DNA of 64,000 bases from assembly GCA_026388095.1 (NCBI GenBank), contig JAPLKL010000044.1, positions 129,993-193,992 of the forward strand. Direction: 5' to 3'. Source of the DNA: Elusimicrobiota bacterium (GTDB lineage: Bacteria; Elusimicrobiota; Elusimicrobia; UBA1565; UBA9628). The notes beneath the pieces are model-generated. The model was not told where the DNA came from and searched no databases. It worked only from the letters and a program-made list of their open reading frames with translations. Of the stretch, positions 34,623-52,096 are shown one piece after another; position 1 is the stretch's first letter, and each line of letters opens with the position of its first letter. Made by a program: the position numbers and the translations under genes.

Positions 34623-37600
34623 TCAGGACCTGCGGGTCTTTCCCAATCCTTTGAGGACGGCGACGAGCCCGATGGCGGCCAGGATGCCCACCACGGCGTA
34701 GCCCGCGGCGGCCAAAGTCAGAGAAACGACGAGCGCCTGGACGCCGGCGCCCACGCCGAAGACCCCCGCCAGACCCAGGACCCCGGCCATGATGTCCTTC
34801 CAGAGCGGCTGCCCGCGTCCCGTGCCGATGGTGTTGAACGCCAGTATCGCCGCGGCGGCGAGTGCCGCCAGACCGGCTCCGATGGCCACCGCTCCGAAAA
34901 GCGTCCCCGTCAGCAGCGCGAGGGCCGCATTGACACCGACGCCGGCCAAGAGCGCCAGCCCCAGGGCTGCGAGGGTCCCGAGCAGGGCGGGATTGGCTCT
35001 GCCGCTCTCTGAGCTGCGCTGGCTTGCCGCGAGGGCCTGTGAGGCCGGAGCGGCCGGCGGCTGGGCGGGCGGCTCGCCCTTGAGCGCGTCGCTCACGCCG
35101 CGGGCCGCGCTGAAGAGGGCCATGAGCGGCGTCCCCAGAAGGAGGACGGTCAGCAGGGCCAGCTGCGCCAGGCGCAGGCCCAGGAAACTGGCCGCGGCCG
35201 CAAGCGTTGGCCGGCCGCTAACCGCCGTCTTGTCGCTGGCTCCCTTGAGCAGCGGCTCGGCCAGCGCAAGGAAAGACTCCTTGGTCGCCTTGCCCTCGGT
35301 GTGCTCCTCCCAGGCCTTCAGGAAGCCGGAGAAGAACCGGGCCGCCGCGGACTTCGGGTAAGCCTCATCGATCGCGCCCTTGGCGTAATTGAAGGGGGCG
35401 CGCAGGGTCCCCCAGACCAGGGCCAAGGCCGCGCTCACCGCGAGGTCGGCCAGCATCATCAGCCCCATGGGCACCCAGATGACGGAGAGCCACGAGCCGT
35501 TCCACACGCTCTTGTCCAGCCAGTAGCGGGCGTGATGGCTGAGGTTCCTGTAGAAGTCGGTCTCGCGGTCCCAGACGCTGACGAGGCGGTAGGAGTCCTT
35601 GAAGCTCGTCCAGAGCCCCTCGAAGACGGATGCGAAGCCGCTGAACACCCAGCGCGGCAGGTGCATGAGCAGCAGCGGGCTGGTCAGATACGCCAGGACG
35701 GTCACGGACAAGGGGAGCAGGCCGGCCAGGCCGGTCAGCACGATGCCCACGCCCGCGGCCGCGGCCACGGCGGCGAAGAAGGCGCCGATGTATTCCGGGT
35801 CGTCCACGGAATAGGTGGACTTGCCTTCGGCCAGCGCCTTGCCCAGATAGCGCGTCAGGCCCCAGCCTCCGACGATGGAGAGGGCCGCCATCCAGAACGC
35901 GTTGGTCTTGGCCAGCGCGAGCAAGCCCAGCAGGCTGAAGGGCAGCACCGGCGTGAGATAGAGCATGCCCAGGCCCATCGCGGCCAGCAGGAACCCCGGC
36001 AGCTGGCGCACCAGCTTCGGGGTCTTGGCCGGCACGAAAGGCAAGGCGGCCAGGCTCAAGGTCGCGGCCAGATAGACGCCGCCGACGAGCGGCCCGGCCG
36101 CGGCCAACAGCGGCAGGCCCAGGAAGTAGACCGGCAGCAGCGCCAGCCCGGCCGCTATCAGGCGCGGCATGATGTTGCTCGTGCCCGGCTGTCCCGGCTG
36201 GTCCGGGTCCTGCGGGCCGGGCTGCGTTCCGGGCCGGTCATTGCGGTCCACGTGCATGCGGCGCGGGTCGTGCTTGGCATCGTCATAAGTCTCGGAGAGC
36301 TTGCCGAAAGCGCGGAAGAAGCCGGCGATGCCCAGGACCGGCGTGCCGACCACGGCGTAGGCGAGCCAGGCCCACTGCAGGAGCCGGATCGCGAAGGTCG
36401 CCGGCAGGCTCACGAATTTGTTGCGGGAGTTCGCGTAAGGGATGAGCGGCTCCTCCACGCGGTTGAAGAGCGACTTCTTGGCGCCCTGCACGTTGTCGAA
36501 CATGAAGTGCGCCCAGGCCGCGAGGAACTTGGTCGGCTTGGAATCCGCCTTGAGCTCGTGAGCCGCGCCCCAGAGGAACATGACCGGGGCCTGCGCCGCG
36601 CCCACCACCGCTCCGCCCGCCACGGACAAGGCCCACTGCACGAGCTGTGAGAGCCAGATCGGGACCCAGATGCCGGCCAGCCACACCGCGTTCCATAAGG
36701 ACTGCTTCAGCTGGGCTCGGGTATAGGCGGTCAGGCGCTCATAGGCGTTCGTGTCGCGTCTTAAGGAAGACTCGACCCTGTCCAGGCCGCGGATGCTCTC
36801 GAACATGTTGCTGAAGGCAGAGGTCATGCCGTAGCCGACCCAGGAGGGCAGATGCATCAGCAGCAGGGCCGCGAACGGATAGGACAGGATGCCCAGACCC
36901 GCGGCCAGCCAGCCGGCCGGGGAGAGCAGTGCCAGCCCCGCGCCCGTGATGGCGCCGAGGCCGCCGAAGAAGGCGGAGAGGGACTTGCCGCTGTCATAAT
37001 CGTTGCCGTCCTGGGGGGACTTGCCGTAGCGCATCAGGCCCCAGCCGCCCAAAGCCACGAGCGTGCCGATGCCGTAGGAGCCGAAGGCTATGGCCAGAGC
37101 GCCCAGGCCGAGGAGCGCGGCGCCGGGCAGGACCCGGACCGCCTTAGGGGTCTGGTCGCCCACGAAGGGCAGGACCGCGAGCAGGACGCTGGCCAGGACC
37201 ACGGCTCCGCCGGCCACAAGCGAACCGCCGGCTAGAAGCGGCCAGCCCAGGAGCGCCGCGGGCAGCAGCGCCAGGCCGGAAGCCATGACGCGGGGCCAGA
37301 AGGGGCTGTTTTTCTTGGGGCCCGGGTTCTGGTCCTTCATCTCGGGGATGCCGCTGACCACCTTGGTCTCGCTCTTCCCATAGTAGGCCTGCGCGGCCAG
37401 CGCGATCTCTTCGCCCGCGGGCCGGGCCAGCTGAACGCCCGCAGACAGGTCGCCCATGGACTCCGCCGCGGCCACGAAGCCGCCGTCGGCCCAGGAGGCG
37501 GCCGGGGCGCCGGTCATGATGGATTCGATCCGGGCTCCGACGCCGTTGGCGGCCTCGGCTCCGGCGTGGGAGATGTCTCCCGCGGACTTGAGGGTGACGT

Positions 37601-38036
37601 CGACCTGCTGCGAGAGGCCGGTGATCTTCTGGGCCACGGGCGTGGCGGCTGCAGGCGCCGGAGTCTTGGAGAGAGTCCGAGTCTGGTAGAGAGAAGGGGC
37701 TTGGAGAGGGGCGGCCAAAGACGGGATCTGGCTGATGGGGGAGACCGGCGCGGCGGTCATGCCGACCTTCACGGCCGGAGCGATGCCCGCGGACAGGGAA
37801 CCCGAGAGGCGTAGGTCCTGCGCCGGGGCCAAGGTGGTGTTCAGGTTGGAGCCGATGGCGATGCTGCTCAGAGTCGTGATGGGGGCCACGCCGGTCTGTC
37901 TGGCGACGCCGGCGGCGGAAGTCATCGTCGCGGCCGCGGCTTCATAGGCGGCGAAGCCCGGGGAGAGGGCGACCAAAGCGGCGGACAAGGCGACAGAGAC
38001 GATGCTCTTGAACAAGGAAAGGTGGCGCCAGGGCAT
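34623..38036 (-). CDS. Very large exported multi-membrane protein with internal duplication, unknown family
   Basis: The start at 38036 (MPWRHLSLFK) is preferred because GGAGG lies 6 bases upstream. The 1137-residue product begins with a signal-like helix (SIVSVALSAALVALSPGFAA), then a low-complexity Ala/Ser/Pro region to about residue 240. Two homologous modules of about 360 residues follow (about 243-600 and 625-985). Each has four hydrophobic helices, a GGWGL.RY motif, LLLMHLP.WV and WN..WL..IWVP in the same order. A third incomplete module occupies the C-terminus. No enzymatic motif is seen and no family is recognised. The style is reminiscent of Elusimicrobiota proteins. Neighbouring genes give no functional hint. 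Confidence 0.75.
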   Translation of the reverse strand: MPWRHLSLFKSIVSVALSAALVALSPGFAAYEAAAATMTSAAGVARQTGVAPITTLSSIAIGSNLNTTLAPAQDLRLSGSLSAGIAPAVKVGMTAAPVSPISQIPSLAAPLQAPSLYQTRTLSKTPAPAAATPVAQKITGLSQQVDVTLKSAGDISHAGAEAANGVGARIESIMTGAPAASWADGGFVAAAESMGDLSAGVQLARPAGEEIALAAQAYYGKSETKVVSGIPEMKDQNPGPKKNSPFWPRVMASGLALLPAALLGWPLLAGGSLVAGGAVVLASVLLAVLPFVGDQTPKAVRVLPGAALLGLGALAIAFGSYGIGTLVALGGWGLMRYGKSPQDGNDYDSGKSLSAFFGGLGAITGAGLALLSPAGWLAAGLGILSYPFAALLLMHLPSWVGYGMTSAFSNMFESIRGLDRVESSLRRDTNAYERLTAYTRAQLKQSLWNAVWLAGIWVPIWLSQLVQWALSVAGGAVVGAAQAPVMFLWGAAHELKADSKPTKFLAAWAHFMFDNVQGAKKSLFNRVEEPLIPYANSRNKFVSLPATFAIRLLQWAWLAYAVVGTPVLGIAGFFRAFGKLSETYDDAKHDPRRMHVDRNDRPGTQPGPQDPDQPGQPGTSNIMPRLIAAGLALLPVYFLGLPLLAAAGPLVGGVYLAATLSLAALPFVPAKTPKLVRQLPGFLLAAMGLGMLYLTPVLPFSLLGLLALAKTNAFWMAALSIVGGWGLTRYLGKALAEGKSTYSVDDPEYIGAFFAAVAAAAGVGIVLTGLAGLLPLSVTVLAYLTSPLLLMHLPRWVFSGFASVFEGLWTSFKDSYRLVSVWDRETDFYRNLSHHARYWLDKSVWNGSWLSVIWVPMGLMMLADLAVSAALALVWGTLRAPFNYAKGAIDEAYPKSAAARFFSGFLKAWEEHTEGKATKESFLALAEPLLKGASDKTAVSGRPTLAAAASFLGLRLAQLALLTVLLLGTPLMALFSAARGVSDALKGEPPAQPPAAPASQALAASQRSSESGRANPALLGTLAALGLALLAGVGVNAALALLTGTLFGAVAIGAGLAALAAAAILAFNTIGTGRGQPLWKDIMAGVLGLAGVFGVGAGVQALVVSLTLAAAGYAVVGILAAIGLVAVLKGLGKTRRS

Positions 38037-38201
38037 TGAGATCCTCCGGAACATCAATATAGTATCCCAATTCTACTTATACCCTGCTGCGGCGGGCTTA
38101 GGTCTTCGAGGGCAGGCGGGCGGAGGAAGATGGCCTATGGATATCAGGGCCTGTTGCCGGGCCTGGTCCTAGGCCGGGAAGTCCAGATGGCCTGCTCCGA
38201 C

Positions 38202-39278
38202 TCAGTGCTTCCCGGGGGCCGGGATCTGGCCGTCCACGCCGAAGATGTAGGAGATCAGCGCCGCGCGGACCCACATGCCGTTGCGTTCCTGGCGCCAGAA
38301 CACGGCCCGGTCGTCCTCGTCCACCGAGGTCTCGATCTCTTGGCGGCGGGGCAGGGGATGCATGATGATGGCGGTGGGCTTGATGGCCTTGAGGTGCTCG
38401 GCGCGGAAGTGGAAGCGGCTCAAGTCCAGGGATTTCGACTCCCCGGCGGCGTCGTGCTCGTCCTGGATGCGGGTCATGTAGATGGCGTCCGCCTCGGGCA
38501 GGACCGGGCCGAGGTCGTCGGTCTCGCGGTAGGGGATGGAGTGGCGCCTGAGGAAGTCGAGGATGTCCGCTTCCATGCGCAGCTGGGGCGGGGACACGAA
38601 GACCAGCTTGACGCCCTGGTAGTTCTTCATGAGGTAGGAGAGCGAGCGCACGGTGCGGCCGCGCTTCAAGTCCCCGACCATGACCAGCGTCTTGCCTTCC
38701 GGTCCGCCCGGCAGGCTGCGATGGAGGGTGTAGGCGTCCAGGAGCGCCTGGGTGGGATGCTGGTCCTTGCCCGAGCCGCCGTTGATGACCGGCACCGGCC
38801 GCTTGACCCGGTTCATGAACCAGGCCGTCTTCTCGACGAAGCCCGGCGTCGGGTGGCGCATGATGATGAGGTCCACGTAGCTGGAGAAGGTGCGCACCGT
38901 GTCCTCCGGGGACTCGCCCTTCATCTCCGAGGAGGTGGAGGTGTCGCGGATCTCCGAGGTCTTGAGGCCCATGATGTGGCAGGCGTTGAGGAAAGAGAGG
39001 AATGTGCGCGTCGAAGGCTGGACGAAGTAGAGCATGGCGCGCTTGTGGGCCAGCAGCCGGGACACGGCGTCGGCCCCGGCCTTGGCCTGGGTGGTCGCGC
39101 GCAAGCGGTCGGCCACGGCGAAGAGGTGGTCCAGCAGCGCCCGGTCGAACTGCTGGGAGAAGAGGCAGTCGTAGAGCCGGCCTTCCCGCGAGAAGAACGG
39201 CAGCTTCTGCGACACGTCGCTGGCGTGGAACTCGTCCCAGTTGCGGCCGACCTCGGTCATGAGCGCGGTCCTTTTCAT
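38202..39278 (-). CDS. pyrB: Aspartate carbamoyltransferase catalytic chain
   Basis: PyrB makes carbamoyl-aspartate for pyrimidine synthesis. The 358-residue protein has the carbamoyl-phosphate loop QPSTRTFLSF (S89-T92), SSEMKGESPEDT with the Lys of the 80s loop, HPTQALLD and the HPLPR aspartate loop. An N-terminal extension of about 40 residues is longer than usual. GGAGGG precedes the ATG. No pyrI regulatory chain or other pyr gene is near, and the gene instead lies beside YgeW-type transferases, so a role in that pathway is possible. A terminator separates it from the upstream gene. Confidence 0.85.
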   Translation of the reverse strand: MKRTALMTEVGRNWDEFHASDVSQKLPFFSREGRLYDCLFSQQFDRALLDHLFAVADRLRATTQAKAGADAVSRLLAHKRAMLYFVQPSTRTFLSFLNACHIMGLKTSEIRDTSTSSEMKGESPEDTVRTFSSYVDLIIMRHPTPGFVEKTAWFMNRVKRPVPVINGGSGKDQHPTQALLDAYTLHRSLPGGPEGKTLVMVGDLKRGRTVRSLSYLMKNYQGVKLVFVSPPQLRMEADILDFLRRHSIPYRETDDLGPVLPEADAIYMTRIQDEHDAAGESKSLDLSRFHFRAEHLKAIKPTAIIMHPLPRRQEIETSVDEDDRAVFWRQERNGMWVRAALISYIFGVDGQIPAPGKH

Positions 39279-39334
39279 CAGCCCTCCTGCGTTTTTTTGC
39301 GGCGCTATGATTCTACGATTTTATGCGCGGGGAA

Positions 39335-39370
39335 AAAAGCTCCGCCGCTTCCTTTGGGAAGCGGCGGATG
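39335..39370 (-). terminator. Intrinsic terminator downstream of the YgeW-type gene
   Basis: On the reverse strand CCGCCGCTTCC pairs with GGAAGCGGCGG around a short loop, followed by AGC and a run of six T. It isolates the 39395 gene from pyrB. Confidence 0.85.
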
Positions 39371-39394
39371 ACGCGACAGCCCGTCCGGGAGCCC

Positions 39395-40411
39395 TCAGCG
39401 CATGGTCAGCGACATGATCGCCTTCTGCACGTGGATCCGGTTCTCGGCCTCGTCGTTGACGATGGAGATCGCGGGATCGTCGATGAGCTCGTTGGTGACT
39501 TCCTTGCCGCGCTTGGCCGGCAGGCAGTGCATGTAGTTGGCGCGCGGGTTGGCCTTCTTGAAGTGCTCGTGGCTGATGCACCAGTCCTTGGCGTACTTGG
39601 GGCCGCAGGCCGCGTGCTTCTCGGGGTCGCGGGCCCAGGACTTGGCGTAGATGACGTCGGCGCCCTTGGCCGCCTTCCAGATGTCGTGCTCGATGGTGAG
39701 CTTGCCGCCGGAGACCTTGGCGGCCTTCTTGGCGAACTCGACGTATTCGGGGTCCACGTCGTATACGCCGGGCTCCTTGGGATAGGCCAGGACGATGTTC
39801 ATGCCCAGCACGGCGCCGGCCGCGATCATGGTCTGCGGCACGCCCGCGGACTTGGCCCGGTCGTCGTAGGCCCAGGACATGACGATTTTCTTCTTCTTGT
39901 AGTCCTCCTTGCCGAACTTCTCCATCATGGTCATGATGTCGGCCATGATCTGGCAGGGGTGCTCCTTGTCGTCGAGCATGTTGATGACCGGGATGCTGGC
40001 GTCCTTGGCGATGGCGCGCAGGACCTCGCGGGCGTCGCCGTACTTGTAGCTCTCCGCGCCCATCTGGGCCTTGAGGTTGTAGAGGCGGATGGAGAAGCCG
40101 GCCAGGAACCGGCTGATCATCGCCCCGGTGTCCTTCCAGGATTCCTTGTTCTTGAGCTGGAGCTGCTCCGGGGTGTAGTACTGGCCGTGGCCGCCGAGCT
40201 GGGTGATGCCGGTCTCGAAAGAGATGCGGGTGCGGGTGGAAGGCGAGGCGAAGAGCATCCCCAGGCTCTTGCCGCGCAGGATGTGGCTGTGGTCCTCGCC
40301 GATGGCGACGCGGCGCTTGAGGTCGAAGGCCACGTCGAAGATGGTCTCCAGCTCTTCCTTGCTGAAATCCATGACGCTGATGAAATCCTTGCCCTTCATG
40401 TTGGTGATCAT
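39395..40411 (-). CDS. ygeW: YgeW-type / ornithine-carbamoyltransferase-like carbamoyltransferase
   Basis: A 338-residue enzyme that moves a carbamoyl group between carbamoyl phosphate and an amine. SPSTRTRISFETG carries the phosphate-binding STRTR (58-62). The second loop reads HPCQIMAD instead of the usual HPTQ, and the amino-acid loop is HCLPAKRG. KKIVMSWAYDD, then GVPQTMIAAG and GADVIYAKSWA match E. coli YgeW more closely than anabolic ArgF. YgeW's natural substrate is unsettled; in urate-degrading clusters it is thought to release carbamoyl phosphate from a ureido compound. A YgeY-like hydrolase gene is just upstream on the same strand. Confidence 0.75.
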   Translation of the reverse strand: MITNMKGKDFISVMDFSKEELETIFDVAFDLKRRVAIGEDHSHILRGKSLGMLFASPSTRTRISFETGITQLGGHGQYYTPEQLQLKNKESWKDTGAMISRFLAGFSIRLYNLKAQMGAESYKYGDAREVLRAIAKDASIPVINMLDDKEHPCQIMADIMTMMEKFGKEDYKKKKIVMSWAYDDRAKSAGVPQTMIAAGAVLGMNIVLAYPKEPGVYDVDPEYVEFAKKAAKVSGGKLTIEHDIWKAAKGADVIYAKSWARDPEKHAACGPKYAKDWCISHEHFKKANPRANYMHCLPAKRGKEVTNELIDDPAISIVNDEAENRIHVQKAIMSLTMR

Positions 40412-40489
40412 TCCCTTATCTCCTCCCTGTTATGATGCGCGGCAGAGCCGTACCTTAACATTTCTGCGCGATTTTGCGCAACAGCGAGG

Positions 40490-41758
40490 CTACTTCTTCA
40501 GGAGCTCGGAGACGATGCCGACATAGCCCTGGAAGGCCTTCTTCATCTGCTCGATCTCTATGTATTCGTTGGTGGTGTGAGCCAGGGATTCCAACGAGGG
40601 GCCGAAGCCGACGACCTGGCAGTCCCGGTCGGGGAACAGCCCCCGGTATTTCACCACGGCGCTGCCGTCGGTGCAGAAGCTGTAGGCCCCGATCTCGACC
40701 GGGAGCCCCATCTTCTGCAAGCCCAGCTTGGCCCGCGCCACGATCTCATCGGCCTCGCCGGCCTGCCAGGCGGGGGCGAATTTGGTCTGCTTGATGCGCA
40801 CTCCCGTATAGGTCGTGCACTCGTCCTGCGCGTACTCTATGATGGGGTCCTTGAAGGACGGATAGAGCCGCTTGCCGTGCGAGACCACCGGCTCCATGTT
40901 GTCCCGGACCAGCTTGAGGATGGACTCCTCCGTGTCTCCGGGTAAGGTCCTGACGTCATAGGTGAGCTCCACCTCGTTGGGGACGGTGGAGTTGCCGCCC
41001 CGTCCGTCGATGCCGCCGCCGCCGCCCACCGGGATCTTGATGTCGGTGGGCACGATGTTGCGCTTGCCCAGCAGGCCGACCGCCTCGGAGCGGTACCAGA
41101 CGTGGAAGGCCTCGATGATGAAGGCGACCTGCTCCAGGGGGTTGACCGTGCTCCGGCCCACGGAGGCATGCTTGCCGTGGCCGAACACGCTGATCAAGAT
41201 CTCGCCCCGGCCTCTCTGGGCGATGTTCAGCCGGCATTCGGAGGCCTCGCCGACGATGACGTAGTCCGGCTGGAGCTTCTTCAAGGCCTCCAGGAAGCAG
41301 ACGCCCTCGAAGAGCTCCTCCACGACGGTGCCGACCAGGTAGATCTCCCCGGCGCAGCCCTTGGGGGCGAGGCTCTTGAGGAACGCGGCCGCGCCGAACA
41401 TGGTGGCGAAGGCGCCCTTCATGTCCGAGGCGCCCCGGCCGTAGAGCTTCTGGTCCTTGATGGTCGCAGAATGGGTGCTGGTCTCGGCGTCCCATTTGGA
41501 GGGCTCGGCGTTGACCGTGTCGAGGTGGCCGGTGAGCACCACCTTCTTGCCTTTGCCGTCGCCTATGACCACCTTGCCGATGAAATTGCCCATCCGGTCG
41601 CTGTAGGCCTCGTCGAAGCCCAGCTTCGTGGCTTCCCTGATGCAGAGCTCGACCACGGATTTTTCCTGGTCGGAGAGGCTTTTCTGCTGGATGAGCTTCT
41701 GCGCGAAGCTCACGACGCTGGAGAAGTCATGGTCCTTCAGGGCGGACAGCAGTTTCAT
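40490..41758 (-). CDS. YgeY-type M20 metallohydrolase, canonical metal site
   Basis: A 422-residue M20 family enzyme (relatives: ArgE, DapE, YgeY) that hydrolyses an amide with a two-zinc site. All ligands are present: H78 and D80 in LTGHLDTV, D112 in GRGASDMKG, E147/E148 in TVVEEL, E171 in VGEASE, and a final His in ESLAHTTNE. A lid domain with GRSTVNP lies between. The start at 41758 has GGAGG 9 bases upstream. It likely shares a transcript with the YgeW-type gene downstream and diverges from the second M20 gene at 41826. The substrate is unknown; an N-acyl or ureido amino acid fits the context. Confidence 0.82.
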   Translation of the reverse strand: MKLLSALKDHDFSSVVSFAQKLIQQKSLSDQEKSVVELCIREATKLGFDEAYSDRMGNFIGKVVIGDGKGKKVVLTGHLDTVNAEPSKWDAETSTHSATIKDQKLYGRGASDMKGAFATMFGAAAFLKSLAPKGCAGEIYLVGTVVEELFEGVCFLEALKKLQPDYVIVGEASECRLNIAQRGRGEILISVFGHGKHASVGRSTVNPLEQVAFIIEAFHVWYRSEAVGLLGKRNIVPTDIKIPVGGGGGIDGRGGNSTVPNEVELTYDVRTLPGDTEESILKLVRDNMEPVVSHGKRLYPSFKDPIIEYAQDECTTYTGVRIKQTKFAPAWQAGEADEIVARAKLGLQKMGLPVEIGAYSFCTDGSAVVKYRGLFPDRDCQVVGFGPSLESLAHTTNEYIEIEQMKKAFQGYVGIVSELLKK

Positions 41759-41799
41759 GGGAGCGCCTCCGATCATTCCGGGTCGCGTGGACATAAGGG

Positions 41800-41805
41800 T
41801 ATAAT
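41800..41805 (+). promoter_or_regulatory. -10 element in the divergent control region of the two M20 genes
   Basis: TATAAT at 41800-41805 is a perfect consensus, followed by GGAGG (41814-41818) and the ATG at 41826. No clear -35 is seen (TTCCGG lies 18 bases upstream), so an activator is plausible. Only 67 bases separate the divergent starts. Confidence 0.55.
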
Positions 41806-41825
41806 ACAAATCCAGGAGGCGCAAA

Positions 41826-43019
41826 ATGGACCGAACCAAGGCTTTAGGCCGGATATTGGAGCGCGACCGCGGCCGGATGGTCGAGTTCCTGCGCGACATC
41901 ATCGCTTTGCCCAGCCCCAGCGGGGGCGAAGGCAAGGTGGCGCGGAGGACCGTCCAAGAGATGAAGGCGTGCGGCTTCGCCAAGGCCTTCGTGGACAAGA
42001 TCGGCAACGCGGTGGGCGTGATGGGCTCGGGCAAGCCCGTGATCCTCTTCGATGCGCACATGGACACGGTCGGCATCCACGACCGGAGCCTGTGGAAGTG
42101 CGACCCCTATAAGGGGAAGGTCGACGCCAAGTACGTGTACGGACGCGGCGCGGCCGAGAACAAGGGCGCGCTGGCCTCCATCATCTACGGCGCCAAGGCC
42201 ATGCGCGAGGCCGGTCTGCTGGCCGGGACCGTGATCGTCACGGGCAGCACGCTCGAGGAGGACTGCGACGGCCTGGGCTTGTGGTACGCTTTGGCCAAGA
42301 CGGGCTTGAAGCCCGAGGCGGTGGTGATAGGGAAATTCACGGAGCTCAAGGTCATGCGCGGCCAGCGCGGCCGCATGGAGATCCAGGCCACGGTGCCGGG
42401 GAGATCCTGCCACGCCTCCACCCCGCAAGAAGGGGTCAATCCCATCTACGCGGCCCTGCCGCTCATCGCGGGCATCGAGAAGCTGGATCCGAGGCTCAAG
42501 AGAGACGCGTTCTTGGGCAAGGGCACCATCGCGGTCACGCAGATCAGCGTCAAGAGCCCGGGCTTCAACCGGCTGGGGCACGAGGTGCGGCTGTCCATCG
42601 ACCGTCGGCTGACGGCCGGGGAGACCAAGGAGCTCGCGCTGCGCCAGATCCGCGCTTTGCCGGGCGCGAAAGGCGCCAAGGTGGAGACGCTGTTCTACGA
42701 GAAACCGGCCTCGACGGGGCTGGTGCAGAAGACTGAGAAGTACTTCCCCGGCTGGTCCATGCCCGAGGACTGCCGGGTCGTCCGGGCGGCCAAGCGGGCC
42801 GCGGCGGCGGCTCTGGGCGCCCCGCCCGTGGTGGACAAGTGGACGGTGAGCTCCAACGGTGTCTCCTCCTGCGGCTTGCTGGGCATCCCGAGCGTGGGAT
42901 TCGGCCCGGGGGAGAAGCGGTTCCTGCACAACTATGAGGACCGCATCGCCATAGCGGACCTGGTCAAGGCGGCCAGGTTCTACGCCCTGTATCCTGGGGC
43001 GTACCAGGCCTCCAAATAG
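41826..43019 (+). CDS. ygeY: YgeY homologue of the M20 family with altered metal ligands
   Basis: A 397-residue protein matching E. coli YgeY along its length (RGQRGRMEIQ, AFLGKGTIAV, LSIDRRLTAGET, PPVVDKWTVSSNGV, VGFGPG). H78 and D80 (DAHMDTVG), E144/E145 and H368 are present. But the bridging Asp of GRG.SD.KGG is Glu here (E111 in GRGAAENKGA), and the Glu of the TEPT motif is Lys (K170 in IGKFTE). Losing this ligand should weaken or change two-metal catalysis. It faces a canonical paralogue across a shared promoter region. Role in the pathway is inferred from the ygeW and carbamate kinase neighbours. Confidence 0.82.
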   Translation: MDRTKALGRILERDRGRMVEFLRDIIALPSPSGGEGKVARRTVQEMKACGFAKAFVDKIGNAVGVMGSGKPVILFDAHMDTVGIHDRSLWKCDPYKGKVDAKYVYGRGAAENKGALASIIYGAKAMREAGLLAGTVIVTGSTLEEDCDGLGLWYALAKTGLKPEAVVIGKFTELKVMRGQRGRMEIQATVPGRSCHASTPQEGVNPIYAALPLIAGIEKLDPRLKRDAFLGKGTIAVTQISVKSPGFNRLGHEVRLSIDRRLTAGETKELALRQIRALPGAKGAKVETLFYEKPASTGLVQKTEKYFPGWSMPEDCRVVRAAKRAAAAALGAPPVVDKWTVSSNGVSSCGLLGIPSVGFGPGEKRFLHNYEDRIAIADLVKAARFYALYPGAYQASK

Positions 43020-43034
43020 GGCCGGTCCCGCCCA

Positions 43035-43064
43035 TGGACTTTCCCACCGGAAATGCTCTATAAT
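43035..43064 (+). promoter_or_regulatory. Candidate promoter of the carbamoyltransferase-carbamate kinase pair
   Basis: TGGACT at 43035-43040 and TATAAT at 43059-43064 are separated by 18 bases. AAGGAGAGG precedes the ATG at 43109. This lets the pair be expressed apart from the ygeY gene upstream. Confidence 0.5.
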
Positions 43065-43108
43065 CCGAAGAGCCGGAACAGGCGCAAATATCTAAGGAGA
43101 GGAACCCC

Positions 43109-44170
43109 ATGAATCTATTTGGAAAGCACCTCGTCTGCACGCAGGAGTGGAGCGTGGAAGAGCTGGAGGCCGTGCTGGGACTGGCGGCCGAGATGAAGAA
43201 GGACCGCTTCTCGTCCAAGTACACATCGATCCTGCAGCACAAGACTTTCTTCATGTTCTTCTACAACCCCTCGGTGCGCACCCGCCAATCGTTCGAGTGC
43301 GCGGCCACCGAGCTCGGCGCCCATGCCCAGTTCCTGGAACCTTCCGCCATGCGCCTGAAGACCAGCAAGTCCGCCGGCGAGACCATCGAGGACGCGGCCA
43401 AGGTCATGAGCCGCTACGCCTGCGGCCTGGGCATCCGCATCCTGGAAGACAAGGTCCAGCAATACGGCGACGGGGACAAGTTGCTGCGGGAGTACTGCCA
43501 GCACGGCTCCATCCCGATCGTCAGCATGGCCCACGACAAGTTCCACCCCTGCCAGGGCCTGGCCGACGTGCAGGGCGCGCGCGAGCATCTGGGCAGCATC
43601 AAGGGCAAGAAGCTCCTCATGGTCTGGGGCCACGGCGCCCTGGCCCGCTCCTGGTGCAGCGTGCAGGAGAGCATCCTCATCAACTCGCGCCTGGGCATGA
43701 ACGTGACCTTGGCCAATCCCAAGGGCTACGACCTCGACCCCGAGGTCATCGCCAACGTCAAGAAGAACTGCCAGGCCGCCGGCACCAAGTTCGAGATGAC
43801 CAACGAGCCCGTGGAGTGCTACCGCGGCGCGGACATCGTCTACTCCCGCAACTGGATGAGCCCCCACGCCTACGATCCGGAGAAGGGCTTCCAGAAGCAG
43901 CCGGAGATCGAGGCCGCGCTCAAGTACACGGACTGGATCACCGACTCCAAGAAGATGGCGCTCACCAACAACGCCCTCTACACGCACCCCATGCCGGTGG
44001 ACCGCGGCCATGAGGTTTCGGACGAGGTCTGCAGCGGCCCGCGCTCCATCATCTACGACGTGGCCGAGAACCGCCTGCACGCTCAGAAGGCCATCATGGC
44101 CTTGACCATGAGCAAGTTCGACTACAAGCCGTCGGGCAAGCCCGCCGGCAAGCAGCGCGTGGCGGCATAG
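43109..44170 (+). CDS. Second YgeW/N-acetylornithine-type carbamoyltransferase
   Basis: A 353-residue carbamoyltransferase. The phosphate loop is NPSVRTRQSFE (S55-R59), with Val replacing Thr as in acetyl- or succinyl-ornithine transferases (SLRTR). The next loop is HPCQGLAD, as in the paralogue at 39395, and the C-terminal loop is HPMPVDRGHEV rather than HCLP. KKLLMVWGHG and ADIVYSRNW align with YgeW. These changes say the acceptor is not plain ornithine. Carbamate kinase follows after 8 bases, so the natural direction is probably phosphorolysis yielding carbamoyl phosphate for ATP formation. The exact acyl-amino or ureido substrate cannot be read from sequence. Confidence 0.75.
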   Translation: MNLFGKHLVCTQEWSVEELEAVLGLAAEMKKDRFSSKYTSILQHKTFFMFFYNPSVRTRQSFECAATELGAHAQFLEPSAMRLKTSKSAGETIEDAAKVMSRYACGLGIRILEDKVQQYGDGDKLLREYCQHGSIPIVSMAHDKFHPCQGLADVQGAREHLGSIKGKKLLMVWGHGALARSWCSVQESILINSRLGMNVTLANPKGYDLDPEVIANVKKNCQAAGTKFEMTNEPVECYRGADIVYSRNWMSPHAYDPEKGFQKQPEIEAALKYTDWITDSKKMALTNNALYTHPMPVDRGHEVSDEVCSGPRSIIYDVAENRLHAQKAIMALTMSKFDYKPSGKPAGKQRVAA

Positions 44171-44178
44171 GGGGGCTT

Positions 44179-45282
44179 ATGGCTAAGAAGAACCTGAGGA
44201 TATTCGCGTTCGGCGGCAACGAGGTCTCGCCGGTGGGCTTGAAGGACGCCAAGACCGGCAAGGACCTCATCCCGGACGTCGCCCTGCAGTGGCAGAAGAC
44301 GGCGCAGACCTGCAAGCTGGTGGCGGACATCATCGAGAGGCACCCCGACGACCTCTACGTCATGACCCACGGCAACGGGCCGCAGGTGGGCAACATCCTC
44401 CTGCGCGCCGAGCACTCCCGCTCCATCCTGCCGTCCTTGCCGCTCGACGTCTGCGGCGCGGACAGCCAGGGCGCCATGGGCTACATGCTGGGCCTGCTCG
44501 CCAGCGAACTGCAGACGCGTGGCATAAACAAGCAGGTCGCCGCCTTGGTGACCCAGGTGGTGGTGGACCGCAACGACCCGGACTTCCAGACCCCGTCCAA
44601 GTACGTGGGGCCGACCTACAGCAAGGAAGAGGCCCTGGACCGCAAGGCCAAGGACGGCTGGGCCGTCAAGCTCTACAAGAAGGACGCCTCGGGCCAGGAG
44701 CTCTGGCGCCGCGTGGTCCCGTCCCCGGTCCCGACCGACATCGTGGAGATCGACGCGGTGGAGGCCCTCATCAAGGCCGGCATCATCCCCGTGACGGTCG
44801 GCGGAGGGGGGATCCCGGTATCCGTGGTCGCTCCGACGACGGAAGGGAGCCAGGACGTCTACACCTGCAACTACGACATCAAGTTCAAGAAGGCCAAGGG
44901 CAAGCCGGCGAAGATCTATTCCGGCGTGGAGGCCGTCATCGACAAGGACCTGGCCTCGGCGCTCTTGGGCAACATGCTGCTGAGAAGGGCCAAGGCGCGC
45001 GGCGAGGAATACCTGGTGACGCTCACCATCTTCACGGGTGAGGACGGCGCCAAGCTCAACTACCAGAAGCCGGACCAGGTGGACCTGCGCAAGCTGACCC
45101 TCAAGGAAGCCCAGGAGATCTACAACCGCAAGCCGTGCCCTTTCCCGGCCGGAAGCATGGGGCCGAAGATCAAGGCCGCCATCAAGTTCATCGAGGAGGG
45201 CGGGCAGGCGGCCTACATCAGCAAGACCGAGCTCTTCGACAAGACCTTGGTCGGGACCGCGGGCACGACGATAGTCCCGTAA
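44179..45282 (+). CDS. arcC: Carbamate kinase
   Basis: This enzyme makes ATP from carbamoyl phosphate and ADP, giving ammonia and CO2. The 367-residue protein has IFAFGGNEVSP near the start, THGNGPQVGN, ADSQGAMGYML, PVTVGGGGIPV, AVIDKDLASALL and the closing TLVGTAGTTIV, all characteristic. It is about 55 residues longer than typical carbamate kinases, with extra sequence around residues 270-330. It is placed immediately after a carbamoyltransferase. A terminator-like hairpin lies between it and the following gene. Confidence 0.93.
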   Translation: MAKKNLRIFAFGGNEVSPVGLKDAKTGKDLIPDVALQWQKTAQTCKLVADIIERHPDDLYVMTHGNGPQVGNILLRAEHSRSILPSLPLDVCGADSQGAMGYMLGLLASELQTRGINKQVAALVTQVVVDRNDPDFQTPSKYVGPTYSKEEALDRKAKDGWAVKLYKKDASGQELWRRVVPSPVPTDIVEIDAVEALIKAGIIPVTVGGGGIPVSVVAPTTEGSQDVYTCNYDIKFKKAKGKPAKIYSGVEAVIDKDLASALLGNMLLRRAKARGEEYLVTLTIFTGEDGAKLNYQKPDQVDLRKLTLKEAQEIYNRKPCPFPAGSMGPKIKAAIKFIEEGGQAAYISKTELFDKTLVGTAGTTIVP

Positions 45283-45291
45283 CGGCGATGA

Positions 45292-45346
45292 AAGCCCCCC
45301 GCGTCGGCCCGGCCCTGTGGGCGGGACGGCGCGGGGGCTTCCTTTT
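45292..45346 (+). terminator. Terminator or attenuator between carbamate kinase and threonine synthase genes
   Basis: AAGCCCCCCGC pairs with GCGGGGGCTT across a GC-rich loop and is followed by CCTTTTG. The next gene starts 15 bases later with GAGGAGGG in front, so readthrough would be needed to coexpress the PLP genes unless a promoter is hidden in the hairpin. Confidence 0.6.
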
Positions 45347-45361
45347 GCGAGGAGGGCTCTG

Positions 45362-46609
45362 ATGAAGGTGGAGACCGGCAGCGTGGTGGGATTCAGATGC
45401 GTCCGATGCGGCAAAGATGCCCCGGACGCCAAGGGCTACGTCTGCCCGGCCTGCTCGGGCAACCTGGACGTGGTCTATGACTATAAGGCCGTGAAGGAGA
45501 GGCTCACCCGCAAGAGCCTGGAGCAGAACCCCGACCGGAGCGTCTGGCGCTACAAGGACATCCTGCCCATCGCCCGGTACCAGGGCGTGCCTATCGTCCA
45601 CATCGGCTGGACCCCGCTCTACAAGGCCGAGCGCCTGGGCCGCGACCTGGGGCTGGCGAACCTCTATCTCAAGGACGACGGCCGCAACCCCAGCGCCTCC
45701 TTCAAGGACCGGGCCGGAGCCGTGGCCGTGGCCAAGGCCCTGGAGCTGGGCGAGAGGACCATCACCGGCGCCTCCACCGGCAACGCGGCCTCATCCATGG
45801 CCTGCCTCACGGCCGGGCTGGGCTTGAAGACCATCATATTCCTGCCTGAGAAGGCTCCCGTCGCCAAGATCGCCCAGCTCCTGGTCTTCGGGGCCACGGT
45901 CATCGCGGTCAAGGGCACCTACGACCAGGCCTTCGACCTGTGCCTCAAGGCCACCGAGGAGTTCGGGTGGTACAACCGCAATACGGGCCATAACCCTTTC
46001 ACCCGCGAGGGCAAGAAGACCTGCTCCTTCGAACTCGTCGAGCAGCTGGGCTGGCAGTGCCCGGACAAGGTCTTCGTCCCCGTGGGCGACGGCAACATCA
46101 TCAGCGGCATCTGGAAGGGCTTCAAGGACTTCCACGCGCTCGGCCTCATCGACCGCCTGCCGCAGCTGGTGGCGGTGCAGGCCGCGGGCAGCGACGCGGT
46201 CAAGCGCGCCTTCGAATCCGACGGGGTCATCCGGCCGGTGAGCGGCGACACGCTCGCGGACAGCATCTCCGTGAGCGTGCCGCGCGACGGGGAAGCCGCG
46301 GTCAAGGCCTTGCGGGAATCCAAGGGCTTCGCGGTCTCGGTCACGGACGACGAGATCCTGGCCGCGCTGCGCGACACGGCCCGCCGCGAGAGCGTGTTCG
46401 GCGAGCCCGCGGGCGTGACCTCGGTGGCGGGCTTGCGCAAGGCCGCGGGTCTGGGTCTCGTGAAGCGCGACGAGCGGGTCGTGGCCCTCATCACCGGCAA
46501 TGGCCTCAAGGACGTGGCCAGCGCCATGAAGGCCGTGGGCAAGCCCTACCTCATCGCGCCCGACGCCGGAGAACTCAAGAAGCTGGTCCGATCGCAGAAC
46601 ATCCAATAG
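45362..46609 (+). CDS. thrC: Threonine synthase (or threonine-synthase-like PLP lyase)
   Basis: A 415-residue fold-type II PLP enzyme. The N-terminus has a zinc ribbon (CVRCGK, then CPACSG) typical of one threonine synthase class. The PLP Lys is K115 in PSASFKDRAG, and the phosphate loop is GASTGNAASS. PVGDGNIISGIWKGFKDF is the substrate-side loop. Canonical ThrC converts O-phosphohomoserine to threonine. No hom or thrB gene is nearby, and its partners are carbamate kinase and another PLP enzyme, so a catabolic ammonia-lyase job is an alternative. It is 9 bases from the next gene. Confidence 0.82.
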   Translation: MKVETGSVVGFRCVRCGKDAPDAKGYVCPACSGNLDVVYDYKAVKERLTRKSLEQNPDRSVWRYKDILPIARYQGVPIVHIGWTPLYKAERLGRDLGLANLYLKDDGRNPSASFKDRAGAVAVAKALELGERTITGASTGNAASSMACLTAGLGLKTIIFLPEKAPVAKIAQLLVFGATVIAVKGTYDQAFDLCLKATEEFGWYNRNTGHNPFTREGKKTCSFELVEQLGWQCPDKVFVPVGDGNIISGIWKGFKDFHALGLIDRLPQLVAVQAAGSDAVKRAFESDGVIRPVSGDTLADSISVSVPRDGEAAVKALRESKGFAVSVTDDEILAALRDTARRESVFGEPAGVTSVAGLRKAAGLGLVKRDERVVALITGNGLKDVASAMKAVGKPYLIAPDAGELKKLVRSQNIQ

Positions 46610-46618
46610 GAGAATCCC

Positions 46619-48103
46619 ATGTCCAAGAACGACGCAGTCCTGAAGAAGACCGTGGCCCGCTGCCGCGAGCGCGGCATCGTCATCCCGACTTTCGCGCAGC
46701 TGGCCAATCCCGCCTCGGTGCCGGACAGCGTCAAGAAGAGGCTCAAATCCGTCGGCCTCTGGGACGTGGACCCGGCGAACCTCTTCCGCATCACCTGGAA
46801 GAACGACGTCAAGACCGGCCTCTTCGGCGACGTGAACTACCTGGAGATCCCCAGCGAACTGACCGGGGTGCCGGCCCGCGTCATCGGGCTCGTCGGCAAG
46901 TACTTCCCGACCGGCGCGCACAAGGTGGGCGCCGCCTTCGGCTGCCTGGCGCCGCGCCTGGTGACCGGCGAATTCGACCCGAGCTCCCAGAAGGCGGTCT
47001 GGCCCTCCACCGGCAACTTCTGCCGCGGCGGGGCTTTCGACTGCGCGGTGCTGGCCTGCACGGCCGTGGCCATATTGCCCGAGGAGATGAGCCAGGAGCG
47101 CTTCGCTTGGCTCAAGTCCATCGGCGCCGAGGTCATCGCCACGCCCGGCTGCGAGAGCAACGTCAAGGAGATCTACGACAAGTGCTGGGACATCCGCAAG
47201 AACCGCAAGGACTGCGTGATCTTCAACCAGTTCGAGGAGTTCGGCAACTCGCTGTGGCACTACCACGTCACGGGGCCGGCCATAGAGGAAGTGTTCGCGA
47301 AGGTCAGGGGCAAGAAGGGACGCCTGGCGGGCTACGCCTCGGCCACGGGCTCGGCCGGGACCATCGCGGCGGGTGACCGGCTGAAGAAGGACTTCCCGCT
47401 CGCCAAGGTCGGGGCGGTCGAGGCTCTGCAGTGCCCGACTTTGCTCTTGAACGGCTTCGGCGGGCACCGCATCGAGGGCATCGGCGACAAGCACGTGCCC
47501 TGGATACACAACGTGCGCAACACGGACATGGTGCTGGCCGTCGATGACGAAGACGTGGTGCGCCTGCTGCGGCTCTTCAACGAGCCCGCCGGCAAGAAGA
47601 TGCTCAAGAGCCAGGGGCTCAAGGAGTCCTTCATCGAATCCTTGCCGCTCTTGGGCTTCTCCGGCATCTGCAACATGCTGGCCGCGGTGAAGATGGCCAA
47701 GCACTATGAGCTGGGCAAGGATGACGTCGTGTTCACCATCTTCACGGACTCGGTCGAGCTCTACGGCTCGCGGCTCAAGGAGATGCACCAGGAGCACGGC
47801 GTCTACACCGAGACCCAGGCGGCCGGGGATCTGGAGCGCAGGCTGCGCGGGGTGGGCATCGACCATCTGCGCGAGCTGGGCTACTACGACCGCAAGGCCC
47901 TGCACAACCTCAAGTACTTCACCTGGGTGGAGCAGCAGGGCCGGACCGTGGAGGACCTCAACGCGCTCTGGGCCCCCGAGTTCTGGGACCGGACCTTCGC
48001 GCAGGTGGGCGAATACGACAAGCTGATAACGGAGTTCAACGAGCGGACCGGCCTGCTCAAGGATTCCGGCGCCAAGGCCGTGGGGGCGGGCGGCAAAGCC
48101 TAA
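46619..48103 (+). CDS. Fold-type II PLP-dependent enzyme, large variant (possible ammonia-lyase)
   Basis: A 494-residue PLP enzyme related to cysteine synthase/threonine synthase. The Schiff-base Lys is K102 in PTGAHKVGAAFG, and the phosphate-cofactor loop is PSTGNFCRGGAFD, with Phe-Cys in place of the usual small residues. YASATGSAGTIAAGDRLK is the C-terminal glycine loop. It is longer than typical family members, with a 90-residue C-terminal extension after IFTDSVELYGSR. GGAG precedes its start, 9 bases after thrC. In ygeW/ygeY clusters of other bacteria a diaminopropionate ammonia-lyase takes this place; this protein may do a similar reaction, but it is not a plain YgeX. Confidence 0.75.
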   Translation: MSKNDAVLKKTVARCRERGIVIPTFAQLANPASVPDSVKKRLKSVGLWDVDPANLFRITWKNDVKTGLFGDVNYLEIPSELTGVPARVIGLVGKYFPTGAHKVGAAFGCLAPRLVTGEFDPSSQKAVWPSTGNFCRGGAFDCAVLACTAVAILPEEMSQERFAWLKSIGAEVIATPGCESNVKEIYDKCWDIRKNRKDCVIFNQFEEFGNSLWHYHVTGPAIEEVFAKVRGKKGRLAGYASATGSAGTIAAGDRLKKDFPLAKVGAVEALQCPTLLLNGFGGHRIEGIGDKHVPWIHNVRNTDMVLAVDDEDVVRLLRLFNEPAGKKMLKSQGLKESFIESLPLLGFSGICNMLAAVKMAKHYELGKDDVVFTIFTDSVELYGSRLKEMHQEHGVYTETQAAGDLERRLRGVGIDHLRELGYYDRKALHNLKYFTWVEQQGRTVEDLNALWAPEFWDRTFAQVGEYDKLITEFNERTGLLKDSGAKAVGAGGKA

Positions 48104-48855: not shown

Positions 48856-48890
48856 CCTCGTTGGGCGGCAGTTTATGTATCATAAGCGAT

Positions 48891-50714
48891 ATGCGCCGCC
48901 AGGCCGCGCTGATCCTTGTCGCCGCCGTCGCCCTGGCCGCCTGCGCGGCCCCGTCTCCCCGGAGCGCCGTGCCGCCCGCCGAGACCGCCGACGACGGCCT
49001 CGCCTGGGCCCGCGGCAAGATCTGGTATCAGGTCTTCCCTGAGCGTTTCCGCAACGGCGACCCATCCAACGACCCTACAGTGGCTGACGTGCCGGAGACC
49101 GACGGCAAGCACAGATGGCATCTTTCGCCTTGGACCAGCGACTGGTACGAAGAACAGCCCTGGGAGGTCAAGCGCTCCACCGACTTCTACCACATGGGCG
49201 TGGTCTTCGCCCGGCGCTACGGCGGCGACATCCAGGGTGTCATCGACAAGCTCGACTACCTCAAGGACCTCGGCGTGGATGTCATCTACCTCACCCCCGT
49301 CTTCGAGGCCCCCAGCCTGCACAAATACGACGCCTCCAGCCTCCACCACGTGGACCTCCATTTCGGCCCCGACCCCGCCGGCGACAGGCAGCTCCTGGCC
49401 GAAGCCCGCGAGACCGAAGACCCGGACACCTGGATCTGGACCAAGTCGGACATCCTCTTCCTCCGGCTCATCAGGGAAGCGCACGGCCGGGGCATCAGGG
49501 TCGTCATAGACGGCGTCTTCAACCACACGGGCCGGCAGTTCTTCGCCTTCCGGGACCTGCTCAAGAAGGGCAAGAAGTCGCGCTACGCCGACTGGTACAT
49601 GGTGACCAAGTGGGGGGAGAAGCCCGGCGACGAGTTCGAGTACAAGGCTTGGTGGGACGTCAGATCCCTGCCCATCCTCGCCCGGGACAGCCAGGGCCTC
49701 CTGCCCGGGCCCAGGAAATACGTCTTCGCCATCACCAAGAGGTGGCTGGCCCCCAACGGCAGCGCCAAGGACGGCGTGGACGGCTTCCGCCTCGACGTCA
49801 TCGAGGAGGTCCCCGCGCCGTTCTGGAAGGAATGGCGCGCGCACGTGCGCTCCATCAAGCCCCAGGCCCTGACCGTGGGCGAGATCTGGGGCGACGCTTC
49901 GGGCTGGGTCAAGGACGGCCGCATCGACTCCACCATGAACTATCAGTTCGCCCAGGCCGCGGTCGGCTTCTTCGTGGACCGCAAGACCGCGGTCTCGGGC
50001 AGCGCCTTCGCGGCGCGCCTCAAGACGCTCCTGGATTCCTACGCCCCGCAGAAGGCCCAGCTGCTCTTGAACCTCATGGACTCCCATGACACGGACCGCC
50101 TGGCCAGCATGATCGTCAATCCCGACCGCCCCTACGGCCAGCGCCACAGCCCCCGCTCCAACCCGGACTACGACGTGCGCAAGCCCGGCGCCGAGGCCCT
50201 GCAGGTCCAGAAGCAGGTCGCCGCCTTCCAGATGGCCTTCCTGGGCGCGCCCATGGTCTACTACGGCGACGAGGCCGGCATGTGGGGAGCGACCGACCCG
50301 GATGACCGCAAGCCCATGCTCTGGCCGGAGCTGGTCTACGCGCCCGAATCTCGCCATCCGTTGGGAAAGCCCCGGCCCGCGGACCCGGTGCGTTTCGACA
50401 CCGGCTTGTGGGGCTTCTATCGGAGCCTGATGCGCGTGCGCCACGAAAGCCCGGCGCTCTCCGGCGGCGACCTGCGCTTCTTGAAGGCCGCCCTGTCCCA
50501 GAGCACGGTGGGATTCTCCCGCCGCGCCGGGGAGTCCGAGGCTCTGGCCCTCTTCAACCGCGCGGACCAAGTCCACCGCCTGTCCCTGCCCGTCGCCCAT
50601 GCCGGCTACCGCGATGCGCTCGGCAACAAGACCTTGGCCTCGGCCAAGGGGCGTCTGCGCGTCGAGGTCCCGGCGCACGGCTTCCTGATCCTGCTCTCCC
50701 AGCCTGGGCCTTAA
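48891..50714 (+). CDS. GH13-family glucosidase lipoprotein (alpha-amylase/cyclomaltodextrinase type)
   Basis: A 607-residue outer-face lipoprotein that hydrolyses alpha-glucans. Start 48891 gives a lipoprotein signal with lipobox VALAAC. GH13 regions are complete: DVIYLTPVFEAPS, VVIDGVFNHTG, GFRLDVIEE with nucleophile D302, VGEIWGD with acid E331 and LMDSHDTDR with D400. A C-terminal beta domain ends the protein. TATCAT lies 7 bases before ATG, again leaderless-like. A GC hairpin with CCTGGGCC-TTAA-GGCCCAGG covers the stop codon. Substrate (starch, maltooligosaccharides or cyclodextrin) is undetermined. Confidence 0.92.
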   Translation: MRRQAALILVAAVALAACAAPSPRSAVPPAETADDGLAWARGKIWYQVFPERFRNGDPSNDPTVADVPETDGKHRWHLSPWTSDWYEEQPWEVKRSTDFYHMGVVFARRYGGDIQGVIDKLDYLKDLGVDVIYLTPVFEAPSLHKYDASSLHHVDLHFGPDPAGDRQLLAEARETEDPDTWIWTKSDILFLRLIREAHGRGIRVVIDGVFNHTGRQFFAFRDLLKKGKKSRYADWYMVTKWGEKPGDEFEYKAWWDVRSLPILARDSQGLLPGPRKYVFAITKRWLAPNGSAKDGVDGFRLDVIEEVPAPFWKEWRAHVRSIKPQALTVGEIWGDASGWVKDGRIDSTMNYQFAQAAVGFFVDRKTAVSGSAFAARLKTLLDSYAPQKAQLLLNLMDSHDTDRLASMIVNPDRPYGQRHSPRSNPDYDVRKPGAEALQVQKQVAAFQMAFLGAPMVYYGDEAGMWGATDPDDRKPMLWPELVYAPESRHPLGKPRPADPVRFDTGLWGFYRSLMRVRHESPALSGGDLRFLKAALSQSTVGFSRRAGESEALALFNRADQVHRLSLPVAHAGYRDALGNKTLASAKGRLRVEVPAHGFLILLSQPGP

Positions 50715-50794: not shown

Positions 50795-52096
50795 ATGCCG
50801 AGACTGCTCCTCGCCGTGGCTTTCGCCCTCTGCGCCGCCCAGCCCGCCTTTGCCGACCCCGGCATCCGATCCGACGAATCCAACAAGTCCTTGACCGAGC
50901 TCAAGGGGCAGGCCCAAGTCGATGAGCTCCCCGCCGTTCAGGAGCCCTCCGGCGCGGCCGTGGAGCAGCGCTACTGGGTGGTGGTGAAGGTCGCCTCGCG
51001 CTCGGACCGCACGGCCGTCGCCACCGCCGGCATGGCCATCGAGGAGATCCGGCCCGACCGAGTGGCCGGCACCGCGCACATCAAGACCATCCAGGCCCTG
51101 CAGGCGGCCGGCTACGTGATCATGTTCCAACAGTCTTTGGTCCAGTGGTCGAAGGACTTCCCCGCGCAGGACAAGGCCTACCACAATTACGACCGCATGA
51201 AGGCGGCGCTCGACGCCGTGGCCAAGTCCAGCCCCAAGCTGGCCTCGGTCTTCTCCATCGGCAAGGGCTGGCAGGGCCGCGACATCTGGGCCCTGCGCTT
51301 CAACACCACCGAGTCCGGGACCAAGCCCAGCAAGAAGCCCGGCGCGCTCTTCGTGGGCGACCACCACGCCCGCGAGCACCTCAGCGTGGAGATGCCCATC
51401 AAGATCGCCGAGTACCTCGCGGCGCACCAGTCGGACGCGGCGGTCAAGAAACTGCTCGACTCCCGCGACGTCTACGTGGTCCCCATGCTCAACCCGGACG
51501 GGGCCGAGTACGACATCTCCACGGGACAGTACAAGTGGCACCGCAAGAACATGCGGGTCAACTCCGACAAGGAGATCGGGGTGGACCTCAACCGCAACTG
51601 CGACTTCATCTTCGGGGGCGCGGGCTCCTCGGGCTCCACCTACAGCGACACCTACCACGGCCCCAGCGCCTTCTCCGAGCCGGAGACCAAGGCCCTGCGG
51701 GACTTCCTGGACAGCCGGCCCAACGTGCGCACGCTCAACACCTTCCACAGCTACAGCGACCTGATCATGTATCCCTGGGGAGGCAAGGACGGGCCGGTGG
51801 ATGACGCCGCGGACCTCAAGGCCTTCCAGGCCATGGCCGGGGCCATGGGCAAGATGATGGGCTTCGGGGTCGAGCAGTCCAACGAGATGTACGTGGCCAC
51901 GGGCGACTGCGCGGACTGGGCCTACGACAAGCACAAGATATTCGCCTTCACCACGGAGCTGGGCGGCGGCAGCTTCTACCCGGGCGCGGCCGAGATCGCG
52001 ACGGAGGCCCCGGGCCAGATCCAGGCCGCCCTCTACATGGTCGAGTACTCGGACGACCCGCATCGGGCCTCGTCCGCTTTCACCGCCGCGAAGTAG
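50795..52096 (+). CDS. Secreted zinc carboxypeptidase (M14 family)
   Basis: A 433-residue exported metallopeptidase. The signal peptide ends near AFA (residue 20). A propeptide-like domain (about 55-125) precedes the catalytic domain. Zinc ligands are H191 and E194 in DHHAREH plus the His in NTFHSYSDL; the catalytic Glu sits in FTTELGGG. PMLNPDGAEYD and GVDLNRNCDF are further M14 hallmarks. It likely trims C-terminal residues from extracellular peptides, feeding amino-acid catabolism. It stands alone between two reverse/forward neighbours. Confidence 0.93.
   Translation: MPRLLLAVAFALCAAQPAFADPGIRSDESNKSLTELKGQAQVDELPAVQEPSGAAVEQRYWVVVKVASRSDRTAVATAGMAIEEIRPDRVAGTAHIKTIQALQAAGYVIMFQQSLVQWSKDFPAQDKAYHNYDRMKAALDAVAKSSPKLASVFSIGKGWQGRDIWALRFNTTESGTKPSKKPGALFVGDHHAREHLSVEMPIKIAEYLAAHQSDAAVKKLLDSRDVYVVPMLNPDGAEYDISTGQYKWHRKNMRVNSDKEIGVDLNRNCDFIFGGAGSSGSTYSDTYHGPSAFSEPETKALRDFLDSRPNVRTLNTFHSYSDLIMYPWGGKDGPVDDAADLKAFQAMAGAMGKMMGFGVEQSNEMYVATGDCADWAYDKHKIFAFTTELGGGSFYPGAAEIATEAPGQIQAALYMVEYSDDPHRASSAFTAAK

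Follow-up and report, generated by a model that had tools for sequence, protein, structure and literature searches.

The window, a stretch of 64,000 nucleotides, corresponds to C44:129993-193992 of the draft genome of an Elusimicrobiota bacterium (G000; 4.6 Mb, 79 contigs, 97.6% complete). It contains a cluster of eight genes, g1 to g8, arranged in two divergent operons; all eight ORFs were found intact and in the order that the first-pass annotation had given:

38202-39278, minus strand: g1, PyrB, aspartate carbamoyltransferase (TIGR00670, 246.8 bits, cut-off 236.95)
39395-40411, minus strand: g2, transcarbamylase that forms a separate clade within the YgeW/AOTC branch, as placed by family scores, tree and motifs
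40490-41758, minus strand: g3, M20 hydrolase, YgeY-like, below the family cut-off (start taken at MKLL)
41759-41825, no strand: divergent gap of 67 bp between the g3 and g4 operons, from sequence inspection
41826-43019, plus strand: g4, M20 hydrolase, YgeY by score
43109-44170, plus strand: g5, transcarbamylase with HPMP, own clade
44179-45282, plus strand: g6, carbamate kinase
45362-46609, plus strand: g7, threonine-synthase-like PLP enzyme of fold type II
46619-48103, plus strand: g8, PLP enzyme of 494 aa with a cysteine-synthase-like core

The minus-strand operon starts with the M20 hydrolase g3, followed by the transcarbamylase g2 and PyrB; the plus-strand operon comprises the M20 hydrolase g4, the transcarbamylase g5, the carbamate kinase, g7 and g8, with only 8 bp between g5 and g6 and 9 bp between g7 and g8. 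The 67-bp gap includes a TATAAT and an AGGAGG sequence upstream of g4. A genome-wide PF02729 search gave four OTC-fold genes, of which g1 alone is ATCase-like; its copies, 87-93% identical, adjoin YgeY/YgeW in genomes of the same genus; its role is probably pyrimidine synthesis. A close orthologue of g6, in genome G054, has 38% identity with E. coli YqeA. Elsewhere in the window, positions 34623-38057 encode a protein of 1144 aa that begins with a signal-like segment, contains internal repeats and is syntenic in the related genome G001; the segment 54001-58000 has a G+C content of 0.60-0.61, below the rest of the window, and a Sel1-like repeat ORF (55704-57377).

The two transcarbamylases had been described as YgeW/AOTC-like; the placement in this branch was borne out by the phylogenetic analysis, while the identity with YgeW was not. 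Against the YgeW family (TIGR03316, cut-off 500 bits), g2 and g5 score 134 and 115 bits, respectively; with the N-acetylornithine carbamoyltransferase (AOTC) family, g5 reaches 238.7 and g2 215.5 bits (cut-off 288), and both are also under the OTC cut-off, the top NCBIfam score being OTC for g2 and AOTC for g5. In the maximum-likelihood tree, g2, g5, YgeW and AOTC group together (100/97), apart from ArgF/ArgI; inside this group g2 and g5 form separate, fully supported clades, and the AOTC clade is distinct from both (100/99). The carbamoyl-phosphate motifs are intact in the two proteins, with STRTR, HPCQ and HCLP all conserved in g2, whereas g5 carries HPMP in the position where most other transferases have HCLP or HPLP; motif comparison revealed the absence of the SMG ornithine-binding motif from both. 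The AlphaFold2 model of g5 (pLDDT 90.8) has AOTC as the closest solved fold (PDB 3kzk/3kzm, TM 0.83-0.84, 33% identity); however, g5 differs from AOTC in its separate clade, in the score below the cut-off, in having HPMP rather than HCLP and in the 80s and 240s loops. Canonical ArgF adjoins argD elsewhere in the genome, and no YgeW was found among the four OTC-fold proteins in a genome-wide search. On the basis of the tree, the motifs, the g5 model and the separate ArgF, g2 and g5 are classified, as far as sequence can indicate, as transcarbamylases occurring where YgeW would be, and neither of them as YgeW, ArgF or AOTC. g2 is present in G000, G046, G054 and G022. Among the matches listed for plasmid records, only OTC/AOTC proteins were found, at about 37% identity or less. 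A distinct clade of PyrB-like transcarbamylases (100/98) occurs in urate-type clusters of other genomes (L136:11531-12511, L173:6039-6995 and L137:6393-7346), the first of which encodes a classical PyrB in addition.

Of the two M20 hydrolases, both previously assigned to the YgeY type, g4 retains this assignment, since it exceeds the YgeY cut-offs (424.2 against 321 bits for NF009555, 418.5 against 321.5 for TIGR03526) and has 42% identity with E. coli YgeY, whereas g3, with 280 and 149 bits, is below them. The two proteins are only 29% identical, and g2 and g5 39%, therefore a recent duplication was ruled out as the source of the doubled genes. The EPT motif of g4 has a Lys in place of the metal-ligand Glu (GKFT), as in G046 and G054, and a Glu in place of the bridging Asp (GRGAAEN), as in G054, the G046 alignment being without that part; both positions we take to be metal ligands from general knowledge of the M20 family, and g3 retains every one of these ligands. 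Judging from these residues, g3 and g4 are not equivalent: the function of g4 may be altered, or the protein may be metal-poor, and a carboxylated Lys is conceivable. A single Elusimicrobia contig (L111:3752-18521) carries in one run HyuA, SsnA, g8, two YgeY-type M20 hydrolases (36% and 54%), YgeW, carbamate kinase, g7 and OTC; thus, the doubled M20 is not confined to genomes of the g5 type.

The plus-strand operon ends with the two PLP enzymes. g7 has an N-terminal Cys4 zinc-ribbon-like segment and is above the cut-off of one threonine synthase family (TIGR00260, 226 bits, cut-off 167) and just under that of another (NF006050, 301.3 bits, cut-off 303). One conserved loop of g7 reads NTGHNPFTREGKKT, compared with forms such as NSVNPYRLEGQKT in four solved threonine synthases, and the EGKKT form is retained in nearly all the homologues from urate clusters. 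Close homologues of g7 (at least 53% identity) are found only in genomes also having g8; relatives with 50-52% identity are present in five genomes of the same class devoid of SsnA (G064, G072, G077, G082 and G096), and for this reason g7 may still have a threonine-synthase role. g8 contains N- and C-terminal extensions around its core, with K102 as the probable PLP lysine, and exceeds no NCBIfam cut-off. The predicted structure revealed only a generic cysteine-synthase-type fold, and DAPAL was not among the matches listed; the core aligns with cysteine synthase and cystathionine beta-synthase across some 300 residues (Z 31-34), but g8 has only 20-30% identity with them, about 100 extra C-terminal residues and a different gene context.

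A genome scan with g8 returned at least 549 coding loci, of which 80, 63-85% identical in the best segment, were kept; nearly all are MAGs, and their record labels include Elusimicrobia, Planctomycetota, Bacteroidetes, Verrucomicrobia, Acidobacteria, Spirochaetes and Ignavibacteria, among others. In these 80 loci the neighbours include g7-like genes (37 loci), SsnA (30), YgfK (24), YgeW (23), XdhA (21), YgeY (20) and HyuA (8), and the unrelated E. coli control queries ArgI and PyrI were found once each. At least one urate-pathway gene is present in 48 of the 80, the other 32 being without one nearby, and YgeX is in none of the 80. Among 97 related genomes, g8 and SsnA occur together in 26 of the 28 that have g8. 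YgeX encoded elsewhere in the source genome was also ruled out, because no NF006058 match was obtained in G000 at E<=1e-10. These observations suggest that g7 and g8 probably replace YgeX. A literature search returned nothing on point for urate degradation involving an enzyme that resembles threonine synthase, nor for purine degradation in Elusimicrobia.

The first-pass annotation had also claimed that urate genes are lacking; this holds for the window, not for the genome. SsnA is encoded on the same contig (C44:16276-17592; TIGR03314, 496.2 bits, cut-off 455.5), about 150 kb from the cluster, and is directly preceded by a YgfK-like gene of 830 aa with Pyr_redox_2 and Fer4_20 domains, a weak match having 27% identity with YgfK over 414 aa; a second YgfK-like gene, also a weak match (32%), lies on C32. 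A HyuA-type hydantoinase is present on C5 (TIGR02033, 535 bits, cut-off 393; 42% identity with E. coli HyuA), within a family that is broad. C65 encodes a 781-aa protein with 40% identity to E. coli XdhD and a 283-aa protein with 29% identity to YgfM, with an XdhC-like gene between them, and further molybdenum hydroxylases are on C53, C45 and C32. The pathway genes are thus dispersed over C44 (in two places), C65, C5 and C32, instead of forming one cluster. About 2.6 kb upstream of the window, at about 126.2-127.4 kb of C44 (L202:18219-19358), a protein with a PF00860 xanthine/uracil permease domain (174.6 bits) is a candidate purine transporter.

Comparison with relatives indicated what occupies the same site in other genomes. 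In the same-genus genomes G003 and G006, next to an orthologue of PyrB (89 and 87%, respectively) come YgeY, 49-51% identical to its E. coli counterpart, and YgeW, 65-68% identical to that of E. coli; after YgeW lie orthologues of the glycosidase (48861-50714) and the carboxypeptidase (50795-52096) of the window in G003, and of the carboxypeptidase in G006. In G001, one contig carries the left neighbours (32819-34531 and 34623-38057), PyrB, YgeY and YgeW, and another one g7, g8, glycosidase and carboxypeptidase, while G004 has a g6-type kinase (88%), YgeW and YgeY together, with g7-g8 and the glycosidase on a different contig. The set g2-g3-g4-g5 sits in place of the YgeY-YgeW pair of the relatives; the enzyme set has been exchanged at an orthologous site, and the linkage that the earlier reading had proposed to look for is indeed kept in relatives.

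Across the 97 relatives the g5 and YgeW types proved mutually exclusive, with the limit that these are phylogenetically non-independent and incomplete draft MAGs and that the thresholds are our choice. Orthologues of g5 were found in eight genomes and YgeW, or a shorter YgeW-like protein of 337 aa, in 12, with no overlap. All 18 genomes with high-scoring SsnA carry one type or the other and never both; conversely, SsnA was detected in 18 of the 20 genomes with g5 or the YgeW type, the matches in G001 and G063 being partial and below the cut-off, and the exceptions being G051 and G054, drafts that are 85 and 91% complete. High-scoring SsnA is found in none of the 77 relatives without g5 or YgeW type. 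The TIGR03316 cut-off was passed only by G001, G003, G004 and G006, and at 1e-30 this model matched no genome outside those with g5 or the YgeW type. A compact arrangement, g7-g8-molybdenum hydroxylase-SsnA-like (about 280 bits), with nitrilase-family and M20 hydrolases nearby and without carbamate kinase or YgeW in that segment, was observed in some other members of the same family and order, for instance G029 (L188:1300-11954), with similar loci in G017 and G044. It is possibly a purely hydrolytic urate route and suggests that the module for ureido removal is exchangeable.

Taken together, these data make it quite probable that the cluster supplies the lower half of reductive uric acid degradation, the anaerobic yanthine pathway, and that the upper half is encoded elsewhere in the genome. 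In E. coli, YgeW produces albizziin by phosphorolysis of the HyuA product, and YgeY and YgeX then yield pyruvate (PMC12507026). By analogy to these three enzymes, we infer the following sequence. The XdhD/YgfM-like hydroxylase, the YgfK-like reductase, SsnA and HyuA would convert urate to 2,3-diureidopropionate; g5, probably with g2, would phosphorolyse ureido groups in YgeW's stead, with formation of carbamoyl phosphate, from which g6 would generate ATP. g3, and possibly also the altered g4, would hydrolyse the remaining ureido group, and the deamination of 2,3-diaminopropionate would fall to g7 and/or g8 instead of YgeX. Two elements of the first reading are supported: the link to ureido chemistry of the YgeW/YgeY type, and ATP formation that likely proceeds by phosphorolysis coupled to carbamate kinase. 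Neither result that the first reading had named as contrary to it, placement of both transferases within ArgF/AOTC or loss of the linkage in relatives, was obtained. Compared with E. coli, this genome shares SsnA, HyuA, the XdhD/YgfM-like proteins, a YgeY-type hydrolase and carbamate kinase and has the weak YgfK-like matches, but it has two other transcarbamylases for YgeW, probably g7/g8 for YgeX, a second M20 and dispersed genes. YgeW is swapped for a different enzyme also in the uricolytic cluster of C. difficile, which includes UacY/UacX; there, however, a D-aminoacylase-type hydrolase replaces both YgeW and YqeA, whereas here transcarbamylases and carbamate kinase are retained (PMC12507026). 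UacY was ruled out for the same-genus relatives lacking g5, whose loci carry true YgeW. An extension of this scheme, for which we would claim rather little confidence, is that g5 and g2 phosphorolyse both ureido groups of 2,3-diureidopropionate, doubling the ATP per urate with respect to E. coli, and that g7/g8 carry out the ammonia-lyase step and are a set marking anaerobic urate breakdown across many phyla.

A different meaning of the doubled genes, tentative though somewhat better placed than that extension, is stereo- or regio-chemical: g3 and g2 of the minus-strand operon would act on one isomer or ureido position, g4 and g5 of the plus-strand operon on the other. Each operon has indeed one M20 hydrolase and one transcarbamylase, the pairs derive from different subfamilies, and according to a commentary both the order in which the ureido groups are removed and the stereochemistry are open (PMC12990295). 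However, the pairing is not conserved, as G005 has g5 and g3 without g2 and g4, and G054 has g2, g4 and g5 without g3; furthermore, the metal site of g4 is altered.

It is improbable, instead, that the cluster is a stand-alone system degrading another ureido amino acid for ATP and unrelated to purines, as had been proposed from the window. The 10-kb cluster is without any upper-half urate enzyme, and G051 and G054 have g5 or the YgeW type with no SsnA match; however, upper-pathway genes are present in the genome, canonical YgeW and YgeY occupy the orthologous site in same-genus genomes, SsnA follows the two types across the relatives, and g7 and g8 are found inside xdh/ygfK/ssnA/hyuA clusters of other phyla. 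Participation in arginine or N-acetylcitrulline metabolism, with g2 and g5 acting on ornithine or acetylornithine in an anabolic or catabolic role, would agree with their top family scores and with the AOTC structures nearest to g5, but it is very unlikely given the scores below the curated cut-offs, the missing SMG motif, the separate AOTC clade and the ArgF next to argD. Thus, the cluster most likely belongs to a variant of the known reductive urate pathway in which the genes are dispersed. This dispersal, and the fact that YgeW and YgeX were looked for and not found, kept it from being classed with the canonical members.

The reductive urate pathway has been worked out only recently, and the change from YgeW to two distinct transcarbamylases at an orthologous site, together with the probable one from YgeX to g7/g8, provides defined enzymes to probe the order and the stereochemistry of ureido removal. 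A literature search found no description of replacements of YgeW and YgeX such as those observed here. In the published survey, PF00185 served to count YgeW and PF00291 to count YgeX (PMC12507026), and therefore g2/g5 and g7/g8 would not have been separated there from the enzymes that they replace; neighbourhood counts at the level of these Pfam domains merge different enzymes. If g8 is an enzyme of the pathway, the likely reach of anaerobic uricolysis would extend well beyond the gut.
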